A DNA stretch of 24,715 nucleotides from a virus: positions 1 through 24,715 of IMG/VR virus record IMGVR_UViG_3300032087_001411. One strand, given 5' to 3'. Shown in pieces: positions 5,120-22,320 of this stretch. Numbering within the stretch: position 1 is the first letter of the stretch; each line of letters starts with the position of its first letter. A program made the translations under genes and the position numbers. The notes beneath the pieces are model-generated. The model was not told the DNA's origin. It was given only the letters and a program-made list of their open reading frames with translations, and ran no database searches.

Positions 5120-5299
5120 ATGCGTTTCATTATTTTGATTGTAGTTGTTGTGATTGGTTTGGGCATTGCTGGGCGCGGCGATATGGAAGACGCCATTGCA
5201 GAACAGGCTCACTACTGCGACATGGTTCAGTTGTACAAAGTGTCTAACGGTGAGAACGGTTGGCCTAATTACAAAGGTATAGATTGTGCGAGTTCTTGA
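5120..5299 (+). CDS. Small single-span membrane protein
   Basis: A 59-residue protein. ATG 5120 is set by AAGGGAGA at 5108-5115; an in-frame TTG at 5063 would add 19 unlikely residues. Residues 3-17 (FIILIVVVVIGLGIA) form an N-terminal membrane anchor or uncleaved signal. The rest is an acidic soluble segment with HYCDMVQLYK and NGWPNYKGIDC, a pattern (‘HYCdMV.l…GWPdYkg…C’) that I recall from small phage membrane proteins of unknown function. Its two cysteines could pair outside the cytoplasm. It overlaps the methyltransferase gene by 14 bases. Confidence 0.65.
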   Translation: MRFIILIVVVVIGLGIAGRGDMEDAIAEQAHYCDMVQLYKVSNGENGWPNYKGIDCASS

Positions 5300-6134
5300 T
5301 CTATTCGCTGGCATCGGTGGCTTTACCATCGGGCTTGAGCGGGCAGGATTTGAGACAGTGGCTTTCTGTGAGATAGAACCTTACGCTCAGAAAGTCTTAC
5401 GCAAGAATTGGCCTGGAGTGCCTATCTATGACGATGTACGAACAATCACAGCAGAGCGATTGGCTTCAGACGGAATTAGAGTCGATGTCATCACAGGCGG
5501 CTTCCCCTGCCAAGACATATCAGTCGCAGGAAACCAAGCCGGCATACAAGATGGGACACGCAGTGGACTCTGGTCAGAGTGCGCCCGTCTTCTTGGGGAG
5601 CTTCGACCCCGATACGCCATCTTTGAAAACGTCACAAACCTGCTTAATGGAGAACGGGGAGCTTGGTTTAAGCGAGTTCTCTGGGACATTTCCGAGATCG
5701 GGTATGATGCGGAGTGGCACTGTATACCAGCTTCCGCGCTTGGCGCCCACCATCACAGAGATCGGGTGTGGATTATTGCCTACCCCAGTAGCGTCCGACA
5801 TGGGCAGTGCGTCACAGAAGCGAATACAGGAAGCGGGACATCCAAAGGCGGCGTTGAGGGAGGCAGTGTTTTGGCCGACACCAAATGCAAGTCAAGGCGG
5901 CACAACAGGGAGCTGGAAACCGATAAGAGACAGCGGCCATACAGTGCAACTGAGTCTCGCCCAGTCTGTCAGAAACTTACGGATACAACAGGGCAAGCCT
6001 TTTGGAGGACTGAGCCCGACGTGGGTAGAGTGGCTAATGGGATTCCCTCTAGGTCACACAGACTTAAATGCTTAGGCAATGCAGTAGTGCCGCCAATACC
6101 TGAATTGATAGGGAGAGCTATACGTGAAGCCTAG
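5286..6134 (+). CDS. dcm: DNA (cytosine-5) methyltransferase
   Basis: A 282-residue C5-cytosine methyltransferase with the main motifs in order: motif I DLFAGIGGF (5-13) for S-adenosylmethionine binding, motif IV GGFPCQDIS (71-79) with catalytic Cys75, motif VI ENV (114-116), motif VIII HHHRDRVWII (155-164), and motif X GNAVVPPIPELIGRAI (264-279). The stretch between VIII and X, which should recognise the target, is only about 95 residues. This is a compact phage-type enzyme, likely used to escape host restriction. GTG 5286 is the only start that keeps motif I; the Shine-Dalgarno is weak (AAAGGT). Unusually, another long frame (5428-6075) lies wholly inside this gene and also looks protein-like. 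Confidence 0.93.
   Translation: MRVLDLFAGIGGFTIGLERAGFETVAFCEIEPYAQKVLRKNWPGVPIYDDVRTITAERLASDGIRVDVITGGFPCQDISVAGNQAGIQDGTRSGLWSECARLLGELRPRYAIFENVTNLLNGERGAWFKRVLWDISEIGYDAEWHCIPASALGAHHHRDRVWIIAYPSSVRHGQCVTEANTGSGTSKGGVEGGSVLADTKCKSRRHNRELETDKRQRPYSATESRPVCQKLTDTTGQAFWRTEPDVGRVANGIPSRSHRLKCLGNAVVPPIPELIGRAIREA
5428..6075 (+). CDS. Methylase-associated protein overprinted inside the dcm-like gene
   Basis: A 215-residue frame lies entirely within the methyltransferase gene, shifted by one base. It is more than a shadow: it contains motifs I know from phage proteins annotated as methylase-related, namely SPAKTYQSQE (26-35), PDTPSLKTSQTCL (61-73), SEFSGTFPRSGMMRSGTVYQLPRLAP (82-107), GLLPTPVASD (115-124), FWPTPNAS (148-155) and a C-terminal LSPTWVEWLMGFPLGHTDL (195-213). 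ATG 5428 has GGAG at 5415-5418. By chance a frame this long without a stop has a probability of about (61/64)^215, near 3 in 100,000, before the methylase constraint is considered. The function is unknown; it could assist or modulate the methyltransferase. The alternative is that this family is a recurrent artefact of conserved methylase DNA. Confidence 0.6.
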   Translation: MTMYEQSQQSDWLQTELESMSSQAASPAKTYQSQETKPAYKMGHAVDSGQSAPVFLGSFDPDTPSLKTSQTCLMENGELGLSEFSGTFPRSGMMRSGTVYQLPRLAPTITEIGCGLLPTPVASDMGSASQKRIQEAGHPKAALREAVFWPTPNASQGGTTGSWKPIRDSGHTVQLSLAQSVRNLRIQQGKPFGGLSPTWVEWLMGFPLGHTDLNA

Positions 6135-16637: not shown

Positions 16638-18230
16638 ATGGCTCAGAAGCGCATTGATTACTACGGCAAGTTTACGCCTACAGGGGTAGACACCTCTCAG
16701 GCTAAACGCTTGCAGGCTCTCTCTGGCTTGGCTGAGTCAGTTAGTGATATTGCGTTCGAGGTAGGCGCGGGCATTCAGGAGCGCAGGGGCCGAGAGGCTG
16801 GATTGAAGGCAGGTCAAGAGGCCGCAGAAAAAGGCGAGGCGATTGAAACTCAACAAGGCTTGTTGTCACAATTGTCGATTTTCGATCAGGCTTACAACAA
16901 TGCACTAACAAAAGCGTATGTGGCAAGCGTAAACACTGACACACAAGAAAATATAAACCGCATATTAACGGACAATCCTGACGATATTGATTCGTTCGAC
17001 ACAGTTATAAAAGACTACAGGCTCGGCGTTATTAACAATGTTGCTGACGAGTTTCAGCCTCAAATAATGATGTCTATGGATCAAGCAATTGCTAGTGCAA
17101 GAGCGCAGGTGCACCAGGCGCAAACCGCAAAAAATTTACAGATTGCTGATGATCGATTCGTTAGGTCTTTTGAAATATCAAGAGACAGGGCTTTAAGAAG
17201 TGCTCGCCTTAATGACGAGGACGATCTTGCGATAGCGGAATTTAATGCTTTCTCCGCTATTGATAGCCGTGTTGAGGCTGGAATGATTAGTTATTCAGCC
17301 GGAGAAACGGAGAAGCAAAAACTATTAGTAGGAATCAAAGCAGAAAAAGCGCGAGGCGGTCTGCAAGTAATGCTTAAAAATGATGCTAGCCCTACTGCCG
17401 CGCTAGACTATATTTCTAAATTTCTTCCAGCCAACCTCATTGCTTCTGACTTTTCTGTTGAAGAGCAGGAGCGTCTTGTTGATGTCCTGCGCGCTGATCT
17501 CCGTGAGTTTATTGCAATGGAAGGTTTAGCAGAGGCAGAAGAAGAAGAGGCAAGAGAAAAAAGGCAGACAGATAACTATATGACCCTTTTCGTTGGGATT
17601 ATTAATGGCGAGAAAGATATTGGTGATGTTACAAGAGCGTCTCTTGCTAACGACATTACGCCGGAAAGCGCTCGAAGTCTTACTACTACCTTGCAAACAA
17701 GAGGGCAGGGCATAGATAACTATGAGTTTATCTATGAGGTGCAAACGAAGATGTATACAAACCCAACAGCGGCAAGGGAAGAGATAGCTAGAAATACTGG
17801 AAGCCAAAATTTGACAAGCGCAACAGCGCTCCAGTTATTGAGATCGTTAGATGAAGAGCCAATCTTAAACACGCCAAAGGCTAATCGTTATAGAAACTTT
17901 GTAAAAAACAGCATTGCAACAACCGACATACTTGGAAACATTACTGGCGATAACAAAAAACGAGCGTCATTTCTAATGTTCCAATATGACGAGCGAGTGC
18001 TTGCTGGTGAGGCACCTGAAGATGTGGCTCAGGACTTAATTTCTATAGACGATATAGCAAACACAAAATTCGAGATATTGTATAAAAACTTAGATCAGCA
18101 ATATGAAGATGGCGAGATAGACGATACTGAATACAACTCGGAATACGAATCATTGAAAGAACAAGAACAGCGCTTGCAAAACTTTGAAAACCTAATGAAC
18201 AGCACTAAGAAGAGAAACAATAATGGTTAG
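16638..18230 (+). CDS. Internal virion protein, gp15-like (putative)
   Basis: A 530-residue, almost entirely helical protein. The N-terminus AQKRIDYYGKFTPTGVDTSQAKRLQALSGLAESVSDIAFEVGAG followed by GREAGLKAGQEAA matches the start of podovirus internal virion proteins (‘..r……..p..vd.s..ka..aLa.l…..d…..g….a..eG…G..a’). An early coiled region and an acidic segment (GLAEAEEEEAREKRQ, around 288-302) follow. It has no enzymatic motif. It sits between the gp14-like gene and the 1365-residue protein, matching the gp14-gp15-gp16 order of T7. From about 16.9 kb the DNA becomes clearly AT-rich (about one third GC in sampled lines near 17.9 and 18.1 kb), unlike the upstream structural genes. Confidence 0.65.
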   Translation: MAQKRIDYYGKFTPTGVDTSQAKRLQALSGLAESVSDIAFEVGAGIQERRGREAGLKAGQEAAEKGEAIETQQGLLSQLSIFDQAYNNALTKAYVASVNTDTQENINRILTDNPDDIDSFDTVIKDYRLGVINNVADEFQPQIMMSMDQAIASARAQVHQAQTAKNLQIADDRFVRSFEISRDRALRSARLNDEDDLAIAEFNAFSAIDSRVEAGMISYSAGETEKQKLLVGIKAEKARGGLQVMLKNDASPTAALDYISKFLPANLIASDFSVEEQERLVDVLRADLREFIAMEGLAEAEEEEAREKRQTDNYMTLFVGIINGEKDIGDVTRASLANDITPESARSLTTTLQTRGQGIDNYEFIYEVQTKMYTNPTAAREEIARNTGSQNLTSATALQLLRSLDEEPILNTPKANRYRNFVKNSIATTDILGNITGDNKKRASFLMFQYDERVLAGEAPEDVAQDLISIDDIANTKFEILYKNLDQQYEDGEIDDTEYNSEYESLKEQEQRLQNFENLMNSTKKRNNNG

Positions 18231-21200
18231 TAAGTTAATAACTGAAGTTGCCGAGGGTGTCGCAAGAGCTGGTGCAGAAGCTCCAAAATCAGGCTTCAGG
18301 GCTTATCACGGTAGTCCATATCAATTTCAGCAGTTCGACTTTGAAAAGATTGGAACAGGCGAGGGCGCTCAGGCGTATGGATATGGCCTGTATTTTGCTG
18401 AGTCGGAAGATGTTGCTCGCGGATACAGAGAGGCATTGACAGAGCCAAGGATTGAAGTTGGCGGTAAACCTGCTGACCTTATATATACAGCAGATATTCG
18501 GGAGCGCTTTGCTGATTTGTATGATGAGGTTGGTGATGATATTTCGCAAGAGCGATTAGATATTATTTTGAGCAACATGAGCCAAGCCAATACTGAAAGT
18601 GACTTGGAAAATGTGTTGTCATCTTTTAGGCCGGAAGAGCGGCGGTTATTTGAAACATACGTTCGTCCTCGCGCTGAATTTGTAGAGCCAGAAGGCGCAG
18701 TGTATGAAGTTCAGATTCAAGCAGGGCAAGATGAGCTTATTAACTGGGATAGGCCAGTCAGAGAACAACCTCCAAAAATACGAGATGCCTTGTTAAAGCT
18801 AGAGGGCGTTGATGAAAACACTAAAGGTGAGTTTGCGTATTACCGACTAGCACCTCAAGCCACAGGAAGAGGTGCGCAAAAGCAAGCAACTGAGCGAGCT
18901 AAAGAACTTGGCATAAAAGGCATTAGGTATGCCGACGGTTTCTCGCGTAATACTGAAGGCGGCACAAGTAACTTTGTAGTCTTTGATCCACGTATCATCG
19001 ATATATCTCGCCAATATGGCATAGCACTTCCAATGGCTGGCCTCATACTGGCTAACCAAGACGCAGAGGCCGCTGATTCTACAGGTCTAGCTGTCGATAT
19101 AGTGCCACCACTTCGTGCGCCTACATTTGAAAATGACGACGCTACTGGCAAAGTCCTTGATGCTAGACAAAATGCTAACTTAACTCCAGCTCAAAGAGCG
19201 CGTTTAAGGATTCAAGCTAAAAAACAGCAAGAAGAATCTATCCCCGCTAGGGTGGGTCAGTTTGCTAGTGAAGTAGCAAAGCCAGTGGCCGCCGATTTTT
19301 TTGGCGGGCTTTTTATCGAAGGGCCACGGCAAGCACTCGCTGGCTTTCTTGATGCGACTGCTGAGGCCGCAAAAATTCTCGATGAAGCAATGGGCATTGA
19401 GGATGTTGAATATCTAACAATAGAAGCTGATCCTCGGACTGTCACGGGCGCTGGTGTTCGATCTATCAGTCAGTTCCTTACAGGCTTTTCACCTGCATTA
19501 AAAGGGATTAGAGCGCTGAAGGTTGCTGAAAAAACTGGTAAGGCTAAAACTTTCGTCGAGTCAGCGTTGGCCTCTGGTGTAGCTGATGCGACGGTTTTTG
19601 ATCCTCAAGAGGATCGGCTATCTAACTTAATTCAAGAAGTTCCTGCTTTACAAAACCCTGTTACTGAATATCTTGCGGCCAGTCCAGAAGATACGGACGC
19701 TGAGGGGCGTCTTAAAAACGCTGTAGAAGGGCTTACCATTGGCTTTCTTGGCGAGGGTCTTGTTCAAGGCGTTAAGCTCATAAAAAACCGCAGAGCGCTT
19801 GTAGAGACTGCTGAAGCTGAAGGCAAGACGGTTGAGGAGCTGGTGGAAGAAGCGGCGGCAACCATGAAGGGCGGAGCGCCTACGCCTGACTTGATGCCAC
19901 CTGGTCAAGAGTACATCCCCTTTAGTGAGGCGGCTGAGGCTGTACAGCCCACTATTCGAGTCCCTCAGTTCAAAGCGGGGACTACTGAGGCAGATCCAGA
20001 GGCCGCACAAAACATCAATCTAGCCAACCTTAATACGACTGATGATGTAGCAACTCTTATTGATGAGGTTGCCAAGGCTGACTCGCCCAACATTAACGAC
20101 GCACGCCGCCAGAAAATCACGAATGACGAGTTGCCCAAGTTAGCTGATGACCTTGGTATGACTGTTGATGACCTATTGGCACGTCGGCAAGGGGAGGCGT
20201 TTAACGCGGAGCAAATACTTGCGGCTCGTAAAATTCTTGTGGCTTCTGGTGAAAACCTTGTGAAGCTAGCTAACGCGGCTAAGAACGGCAGTGAGATGGA
20301 TCTTGCTTTGTTCCGTAGGGCGATGGCACAGCATCGAGCCATCCAGTCACAGGTATCAGGCATGACGGCTGAGGCTGGTCGTGCATTGCAGTCATTCCGA
20401 ATTGTAGCGGCTAGTTCACGAGAGCAAGAGCGCCTTATTAAAGAGGCGCTAGAGACTACGGGCGGTGAAGCTGTATCCCGTGACATGGCGGCCATGCTGT
20501 CAGAGCTGGATAGCCCTGAGAAGATCGGTCGCTTTGTTAAGGATGCTCAAAAAGCCACAAAGATGGATATGCTTTATGAGTATTGGATCAATGCGTTGCT
20601 GTCGTCACCCACAACGCACATGGTAAATATAACATCCAATGCGATGGTCGCGGCTTTGACTGTTGGTGAAAGAAAAGTGGCAAGCGTGATCGGTCGAAAC
20701 ATACAGCCTGGTGAAGCGGATGCCCAACTTAAAGGAATGATTGACGGCGCTCGCGATGGCTTTCGGTTGGCATGGAATGCTTTGAAAACGGGTGAGCCTA
20801 CCGATCCACTGCAAAAAGTAGAAGCAGAAAAACACAGAGCTATTTCTGGGGAAAACCTAAATATTGCAGGATTTCCAGGGCGGCTCGCAGATTTTCTAGG
20901 TGAGTTTGCCCGTGTTCCTGGTCGCTTATTAACTGCTGGCGATGAATTCTTTAAGTCTGTTGGCTACCGAATGGAGTTGTACGCGCAGGCTTATCGTCAA
21001 GCATTTAATGAAGGGTTGCGTGATGAGGCGGCGGCAAAGCGCGTTATTGAGATTATTGAGAACCCACCAGAAAATATCAGGCAGTCAGCTATTGATGCAA
21101 GTCGCTATCAGACTTTTACTAACTCATTAAAAGAAACAAGAATCAGAGGGATTGGAGAGTTAGGTCAAGCAGGCGAAAAAATTAGGCAAGCACAAAGCGT

Positions 21201-22320
21201 TGGCCCTTATGCAAGAATAATTATTCCGTTTGTAAGAACTCCAACCAACATAGCGTCATATACGTTTGAAAGAACGCCTTTAGCGTTTGCTTCTCGTTCT
21301 GTTAGGCAGGAAATTGCCGCTGGTGGTGCTAGACGCGATTTAGCTTTAGCGAAAATTATTACAGGCTCGACGATAATGGGTGTGTCTGCTGATCTTGCTT
21401 TGAGTGGTCACATCACAGGAGCAGGGCCATCCAATCGTGATATGAGAAATCTTATGCGTGCTACTGGCTGGCAACCGTACTCAGTCAAAGTTGGCAATAC
21501 GTATTACGCATACAACAGGCTTGACCCTATAGGCACATTGTTAGGTTTGGCGGCTGATATTACAGAAATTATTGGGCAGGCAGATGAAGCGGATGCAATG
21601 GAAATTGCGGCGGCATCAGCGATTGCGGTTAGTCAAAACATGGCAAGCAAAACTTATCTATCAGGAGTGAGTGATTTCTTTGATTCGTTTTTCAGCGCTA
21701 GTACCGACCCAGAAGGAAACAGCGCCAAGATGGAGCGATTCTTTACAAGAATGGCGGGATCAGTTGTTCCTGGTTTTGTTGCCAGTGTAGAGCGCACTAT
21801 GAGTCCAGAAATCAGCGCAACGTACACAATGCTAGACAGGATTAAATCTCGGATACCTGGTTATTCAGATGACTTGCCGCCACGACGAAATATTTTTGGA
21901 GAGCCTATTGTTCTAAGTGGTGGCCTTGGCCCTGATATTGTTTCAGGTATTTATTCCTCTGAAGTAGTAGACGATCCGGTAGCAGAAGAGATGATAAATC
22001 AAGGATATGCGCCTGGTATGCCAAGCAGACAAATCAAGGGCGTTGAATTAGATGCTCAGCAGTATGATCGTTACATCCTTTTGTATAGCGGCATTGAAGC
22101 AGACTATACGCTAAAAGAATATTTGAGCATTATGTTTGATTCAAGAGATTATGTATCTGGCTCAGATGGCCCTGAAGGTACAAAAGTTGAGTTGATTCAA
22201 GCTGTTTTTAATGGCTATAAGCGCATGGCTCAACAGCAGATGTTGGAAGAGGATGATAAACTTAGAAGCTCGGTAGAGGCCGCGATAGAAGAGCGGGAAA
22301 GAAAGAGGGCGGGACTGTAA
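18223..22320 (+). CDS. Large polyvalent ejected virion protein with an ADP-ribosyltransferase-like domain
   Basis: A 1365-residue protein at the gp16 position, overlapping the previous gene by 8 bases. Residues 25-265 look like an ADP-ribosyltransferase of the type found in phage polyvalent proteins: YHGSPYQFQQFDFEKIGTGE (28-47), GYGLYFAE (53-60) and NFVVFDPRIIDISRQYG (about 247-263). That family (described as ART in polyvalent proteins) has NAD-binding YHG and LYFAE motifs. Residues 290-530 contain hydrophobic Ala/Gly helices, and about 760-1100 is a large helical region (MDMLYEYWINALLSSPTTHMVNITSNAMVA, PYARIIIPFVRTPTNIASYTFERTP, NRLDPIGTLLGLAADITEIIG) like the large domains at the C-termini of such proteins. 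It is probably ejected with the DNA to modify a host target and help DNA entry. No lysozyme motif was seen. Confidence 0.75.
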   Translation: MVSKLITEVAEGVARAGAEAPKSGFRAYHGSPYQFQQFDFEKIGTGEGAQAYGYGLYFAESEDVARGYREALTEPRIEVGGKPADLIYTADIRERFADLYDEVGDDISQERLDIILSNMSQANTESDLENVLSSFRPEERRLFETYVRPRAEFVEPEGAVYEVQIQAGQDELINWDRPVREQPPKIRDALLKLEGVDENTKGEFAYYRLAPQATGRGAQKQATERAKELGIKGIRYADGFSRNTEGGTSNFVVFDPRIIDISRQYGIALPMAGLILANQDAEAADSTGLAVDIVPPLRAPTFENDDATGKVLDARQNANLTPAQRARLRIQAKKQQEESIPARVGQFASEVAKPVAADFFGGLFIEGPRQALAGFLDATAEAAKILDEAMGIEDVEYLTIEADPRTVTGAGVRSISQFLTGFSPALKGIRALKVAEKTGKAKTFVESALASGVADATVFDPQEDRLSNLIQEVPALQNPVTEYLAASPEDTDAEGRLKNAVEGLTIGFLGEGLVQGVKLIKNRRALVETAEAEGKTVEELVEEAAATMKGGAPTPDLMPPGQEYIPFSEAAEAVQPTIRVPQFKAGTTEADPEAAQNINLANLNTTDDVATLIDEVAKADSPNINDARRQKITNDELPKLADDLGMTVDDLLARRQGEAFNAEQILAARKILVASGENLVKLANAAKNGSEMDLALFRRAMAQHRAIQSQVSGMTAEAGRALQSFRIVAASSREQERLIKEALETTGGEAVSRDMAAMLSELDSPEKIGRFVKDAQKATKMDMLYEYWINALLSSPTTHMVNITSNAMVAALTVGERKVASVIGRNIQPGEADAQLKGMIDGARDGFRLAWNALKTGEPTDPLQKVEAEKHRAISGENLNIAGFPGRLADFLGEFARVPGRLLTAGDEFFKSVGYRMELYAQAYRQAFNEGLRDEAAAKRVIEIIENPPENIRQSAIDASRYQTFTNSLKETRIRGIGELGQAGEKIRQAQSVGPYARIIIPFVRTPTNIASYTFERTPLAFASRSVRQEIAAGGARRDLALAKIITGSTIMGVSADLALSGHITGAGPSNRDMRNLMRATGWQPYSVKVGNTYYAYNRLDPIGTLLGLAADITEIIGQADEADAMEIAAASAIAVSQNMASKTYLSGVSDFFDSFFSASTDPEGNSAKMERFFTRMAGSVVPGFVASVERTMSPEISATYTMLDRIKSRIPGYSDDLPPRRNIFGEPIVLSGGLGPDIVSGIYSSEVVDDPVAEEMINQGYAPGMPSRQIKGVELDAQQYDRYILLYSGIEADYTLKEYLSIMFDSRDYVSGSDGPEGTKVELIQAVFNGYKRMAQQQMLEEDDKLRSSVEAAIEERERKRAGL

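Follow-up and report, generated by a model that had tools for sequence, protein, structure and literature searches.

The window analyzed here, a 24,715-nucleotide stretch of an IMG/VR virus record, contains phage structural genes encoding the large terminase, head-tail adaptor, major head protein, and tail proteins, along with a pair of overlapping genes that are the subject of this analysis. The longer one, ORF A (positions 5286..6134, + strand, as are all features of this gene pair described below), starts with GTG and encodes a 282 aa C5-cytosine DNA methyltransferase, the probable catalytic subunit; the shorter one, ORF B (5428..6075), is wholly nested within ORF A in the +1 frame relative to A, has its own ATG at 5428, and encodes a 215 aa protein, the candidate target-recognition and motif IX subunit. 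A Shine-Dalgarno-like GGAG lies 9 nt 5' of the B ATG (5415..5418). A check against the sequence bore out the ORF coordinates given in the first-pass annotation, the 215 open codons, the ATG, the GGAG, and the quoted motifs with their register in the two frames. The RNA around the B start (5380-5480) is less structured than shuffled sequences (z = +2.0; 198 of 200 shuffles fold at least equally well), which is weak evidence consistent with an accessible start; a promoter scan detected none at B. About 3 kb from the methyltransferase, at 1771-2433, the window encodes a Mom-family DNA modification protein (Pfam Mom, E = 2e-35; PHROG 1384), the proximity of which fits a phage shielding its own DNA from restriction, and positions 18223-22320 encode a 1365-residue protein with a weak N-terminal match to the polyvalent-protein ADP-ribosyltransferase domain (PF18760, E = 5e-5, below the cut-off).

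Protein A has the features of a C5-methyltransferase, namely, motifs I-VIII, the PCQ nucleophile, ENV, RxR, and a Rossmann-like fold. It matches the Pfam family PF00145 over residues 1-170 (E = 1.7e-50) and PHROG 363 (E = 5.7e-81), and a Foldseek search with its AF2 model identified M.HhaI (E = 1.2e-14), with M.HhaI and M.HaeIII being the nearest solved structures. The FPCQ of catalytic motif IV (5502..5513), where the B frame reads SPAK, is invariant across 60 aligned A proteins. In the AF2 model, the catalytic domain with motifs I-VIII (residues 1-172, 5286..5801; pLDDT mostly high, 70-98 by block) and the motif X helices, RSHRLKCLGNAVVPPIPELIGRAIREA (residues 257-282, 6054..6131; pLDDT about 91-94 over the last 20 residues), are confident, and residues 173-230 (5802..5975), at the usual place of the recognition domain, are predicted to form a disordered linker (pLDDT <50). 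Neither a folded target-recognition domain nor motif IX was found within the A chain, which has no WVEWLMGFP-type motif; judging from the model, the small domain is apparently missing from A and would come from B.

Protein B matches the phage family PHROG 1008, labelled "DNA methyltransferase" (E = 3.5e-24), and no Pfam, NCBIfam, or PADLOC model. Its C-terminus, of the form LNPxWVEWLMGFPxGWT (residues 195-212, LSPTWVEWLMGFPLGHTD; 6010..6063), corresponds to motif IX of C5-methyltransferases: it sits at the motif IX position of 12 relatives (L241, L262, and L264-L273) in which the copy of this motif stands in frame with A, in the order recognition region, motif IX, motif X. Compared with the PDB, the C-terminal motif yields a weak match to motif IX of the plant DRM (4onj/4onq, E = 0.4). 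The middle of B consists of 1-5 tandem "PTPxAxD" cassettes, mostly of 30-40 residues, each beginning with PTP. There are 35 recurrent cassette families, 29 of which occupy more than one slot and 32 of which have more than one partner family; the cassettes are shuffled between phages. The B of the window carries two: residues 119-150 (5782..5877; TPVASDMGSASQKRIQEAGHPKAALREAVFWP, cassette family j) and residues 151-194 (5878..6009; beginning with TPNASQGGTTGSWKPIRDSGH, cassette family c). From their position, their modularity, and analogy, each cassette probably represents one target-recognition unit. Modelled by itself with AF2, B gives a poor result (pLDDT 57), as might be expected if the domain needs its partner to fold.

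The openness of the B frame is not a chance by-product of the A sequence. When the A gene of the window was shuffled among synonymous codons, the B region stayed open in 0.5% of the trials. A search of viral contigs with B as the query retrieved 80 loci, in nearly all of which both frames are open in the same register; loci found this way constitute a sample biased towards B, and the test was therefore redone with relatives found by A alone. Of the 61 A-sampled loci that have both motif IV and motif X, 57 show no stop in the +1 frame between these motifs, compared with 1.48 of 61 expected after synonymous shuffling, which introduces 4.5 stops on average; in the remaining four, B is intact and terminates 2-3 codons ahead of motif X. 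In the +2 frame, none of 73 loci is open. A Shine-Dalgarno-like string is present in 24 of the 35 A-sampled loci with an ATG at the codon pair of the B start. The first-pass annotation had named stops in B, in relatives with an intact methyltransferase, as evidence against a real gene; among 80 A-sampled relatives, a single one (L122) contains an internal stop in B. This stop is located before GIWPTSGMM in a locus with an intact ORF A and suggests either that B is decaying or that the sequence contains an error.

A second line of evidence comes from synonymous sites. Codon position 3 of A is codon position 2 of B, so that third-position changes that are silent in A alter B. In close pairs, the divergence at fourfold sites of A is about 0.63 before B (codons 1-48) and 0.57 after B (codons 263-282), and drops to 0.19, 0.33, 0.14, 0.07, 0.09, and 0.05 in most of the A blocks within B; over a variable stretch of B (residues 33-49), it is 0.55. 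Among close relatives, the median per codon is 0.15 inside vs 0.61 outside B (p = 1.5e-12). These loci had been found with B and are thus a biased sample; repeated on the loci found with A, the test gives 0.52 inside vs 0.71 outside (p = 5e-13), with the steepest constraint, 0.00-0.14 at most codons, across the C-terminal motif of B. The constraint sets in near the start codon of B and persists up to its stop, after which normal fourfold divergence resumes. Thus, purifying selection acts on B at the protein level, beyond any selection imposed by A, the lack of which was the other outcome that the first-pass annotation had regarded as fatal to the gene. Of the two possibilities left open there, an overprinted gene maintained for a long time is the one upheld by the openness of the frame in A-sampled relatives and by the synonymous constraint confined to B; B likely originated by overprinting of A.

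The two frames share the burden of conservation unequally along the gene. Both A and B are conserved across motifs IV-VIII; from there to motif X, B is the leading frame. The initial cassette clusters rested on B similarity, which biases the comparison, and it was repeated with clusters built from the A frame and from DNA; in these B-blind clusters, A codon position 1 (B position 3) differs in 0.48-0.50 of comparisons and A position 3 (B position 2) in 0.13-0.15, and amino acid differences amount to 0.54-0.55 in A and 0.19-0.21 in B. In the region of A residues 173-230, the amino acids of A drift while B stays conserved. The same applies further downstream, where B retains MGFPxGWT or a near-match in loci with A tails departing from EPxVGRVAxGxP (L123, L126, L129, L132, L134, and L149).

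Natural controls are provided by loci in which motifs IX and X are distributed differently between the frames. In Mycobacterium phage Shaka and its relatives, Gordonia phage Jumbo, and a Streptomyces plasmid, A ends soon past motif VIII, and the +1 frame holds the cassettes, motif IX, and motif X; in the Shaka group, the part of B beyond the overlap with A shows the ordinary codon signature of a single gene (divergence of 0.107, 0.083, and 0.288 at B positions 1, 2, and 3, respectively). Conversely, in the 12 relatives mentioned above, frame A encodes both motif IX (LNPDWVEWLMGFP) and motif X, leaving only cassettes to the +1 frame, which stops short of motif IX (128-183 codons in the ten viral loci). 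In these 12 genes, the synonymous divergence is 0.25 and 0.20 over B, 0.52 over motif IX, and 0.59 at the N-terminus. The constraint is lifted over motif IX once this motif is in frame A, which indicates that the coding constraint follows the reading frame rather than a DNA signal; furthermore, the presence of motif IX in A at these loci implies that the function of B cannot be that of motif IX alone. Within this set, some loci differ from others by an entire middle cassette (L265 compared with L270, L272, and L273). Two other candidates for motif IX in frame with A, L194 and L206, were set aside as they look like frameshifted metagenome contigs. In another locus (L182, 836-2557), an actinophage-like methyltransferase ORF of 574 codons contains a large insertion after ENV, and the +1 frame of this insertion reads as an ORF whose AAGLLDGEG looks similar to LAGLIDADG on visual inspection, with no support from Pfam; the insertion resembles the out-of-frame homing endonuclease insertions that have been reported in phage methylases (PMC11855218).

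Loci in which B encodes motif IX and A encodes motif X, usually with 62 nt between the two, are widespread. They were detected in genomes of Pseudomonadota, Actinomycetota, Bacillota, Bacteroidota, and Gemmatimonadota as well as Chloroflexi, Elusimicrobia, Planctomycetota, and others, and B-like sequences are present in 302 phage records. One Roseovarius chromosome (OX638333.1) carries at least five near-identical A/B loci (L221, L222, L225, L228, and L229). A search for B encoded alone, as proposed in the first-pass annotation, found no stand-alone B gene in phages, plasmids, genomes, or viral contigs, and every B examined overlaps an A; for all candidates without an obvious A, one is present in the -1 frame, with the exception of an apparently chimeric contig (L248). 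Annotation of these loci is inconsistent: frequently, A alone is annotated, and in Stenotrophomonas phage SOVA965, the B frame is the sole annotated one. In Paenibacillus phage Lily, LILY_63 is recorded as "g62 internal gene", without a function or a subunit role; this gene is internal just as the B of the window, which matches PHROG 1008. Searches of the open-access literature turned up no description of such overlapping pairs as a family of wide occurrence.

Taken together, these observations make it likely that the locus encodes a two-subunit C5-methyltransferase, with A as the catalytic subunit and B as the target-recognition subunit, produced from overlapping frames. B carries motif IX and the cassettes, the cassettes shuffle, and A has no predicted folded recognition domain. 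The first-pass annotation, which described two methylase-associated families in two frames, is borne out in one of its two options, that of a real overlapping gene; rather than separate families, however, the evidence points to A and B being two halves of one enzyme, with B not an unrelated protein. Under this scenario, A, with motifs I-VIII and X, would bind SAM and attack the cytosine, and B, apparently translated from its own start inside A, would supply the small domain comprising the target-recognition cassettes and motif IX. The two proteins would assemble into a single enzyme that presumably methylates the DNA of the phage itself, probably evading host restriction, and swapping of cassettes would alter the set of sites that become methylated.

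Several other explanations of B have to be considered. Instead of having a start of its own, B could be read via programmed +1 ribosomal frameshifting from A, as part of an A-B fusion; in the actinophage-type genes, where A stops just past motif VIII, a shift into the +1 frame, which encodes everything from the cassettes through motif IX to motif X, would indeed produce a complete enzyme in the classical order. We nevertheless consider this unlikely, given that B residues 1-30, which would be dispensable to the fusion, are constrained (fourfold divergence of A of 0.19-0.33 over codons 49-80 vs 0.61 over codons 33-48), that the ATG and the Shine-Dalgarno-like site recur at the same position, and that, in window-type loci, the fusion would be left without motif X, which A encodes. 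Many overprinted viral genes have accessory roles, and with no database function available for B, it could be a real overlapping gene with a role other than methylation, such as regulation of the methyltransferase or counteraction of host defence. Slightly less plausible still than frameshifting, this possibility is at odds with the C-terminal motif IX of B, absent from A and in frame with A in related loci, with the failure to find any B without A, and with the model of A, in which there is no folded recognition domain.

The two remaining explanations deny that B is a gene, and both were rejected. The first-pass annotation had raised the possibility that the second frame is only an image of conserved methylase sequence, seen out of frame and annotated time and again by mistake. 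Conserved residues of A do restrict B, as in the case of FPCQ, which permits SPAK, and annotators call either frame "DNA methyltransferase"; however, shuffles predict about 4.5 stops in a frame that is open, the synonymous constraint is limited to B and moves with the frame, the cassettes are more conserved in B than in A, which drifts there, and B remains conserved beyond the end of A, with the ordinary coding signature seen in the actinophages. Such an image is thus refuted, with hardly any probability remaining. Similarly, a binding site or a structured RNA could constrain a stretch within a gene, but here the constraint spans hundreds of bases with the codon periodicity of B (B2<B1<B3), the length changes in triplets, as cassettes, and the constraint is lifted over the motif IX sequence when it is in frame A; a DNA or RNA element is dismissed as extremely improbable, given the periodicity and the loci in which frame A includes motif IX.

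Having favored the two-subunit enzyme, we propose, with somewhat less assurance, that it belongs to a large family of phage and prophage C5-methyltransferases in which the entire recognition subunit, made of swappable 30-40-residue cassettes, is encoded in the alternate frame, with motifs IX and X switching frames, so that the same DNA specifies specificity in one frame and a disordered linker in the other. Many phage and bacterial genes designated "DNA cytosine methyltransferase" are annotated with only one of the two putative subunits or in the wrong frame, and such enzymes cloned or predicted from a single frame would fail. The pair is a rare example of a deep, nearly fully overlapping gene arrangement with hundreds of relatives and natural controls in which motif IX is in the other frame, and the origin, persistence, and separation of overlapping genes become testable with this family. 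If the cassettes are recognition units, they would amount to a readable code for the methylation specificity of phages.

Parts of this organization have precedents among known C5-methyltransferases; the new elements are the breadth of the family, the alternate-frame coding of modular, putative recognition cassettes, and the way motifs IX and X have moved from one frame to the other. M.EcoHK31I, which recognizes YGGCCR, is a C5-methyltransferase consisting of two polypeptides, as is M.EaeI. The small ORF of M.EcoHK31I lies inside the large ORF in another frame, and both polypeptides are needed for activity in vitro. According to PMC3404938, its motifs I-VIII and X reside on the large polypeptide and motif IX on the small one, and the predicted recognition domain is assigned to the larger subunit. 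By motif layout, the window is similar, with motifs I-VIII and X in the large polypeptide and motif IX in the small one, encoded within the large ORF in another frame and under selection as a protein. In contrast, the recognition region of the window is best assigned to the small polypeptide, as shuffled cassettes, since the cassettes are conserved in B while the corresponding region of A is disordered and drifting; moreover, the window-type genes are phage-borne and widespread, and motif IX, or motif X as well, switches frame in some loci. In M.AquI, also according to PMC3404938, a catalytic half with motifs I-VIII is separate from a half with motifs IX and X. The same division is seen in the actinophage loci, for example, Shaka gp77/gp76, whereas the window type keeps motif X on the catalytic half, with the overlap almost complete and in another frame. 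Finally, the C5-methyltransferases of the Bacillus phages SPR, phi3T, rho11, and H2 are cited in PMC8936443 as containing tandem target-recognition domains with several specificities. The 1-5 shuffled tandem cassettes of the window family, if they act as recognition units, would parallel those of the multispecific enzymes, and the window would then unite this feature with the alternate-frame coding of M.EcoHK31I; the Bacillus phage enzymes, however, are single polypeptides encoded in one frame, whereas the cassettes of the window family are encoded in a second frame, as a separate protein.
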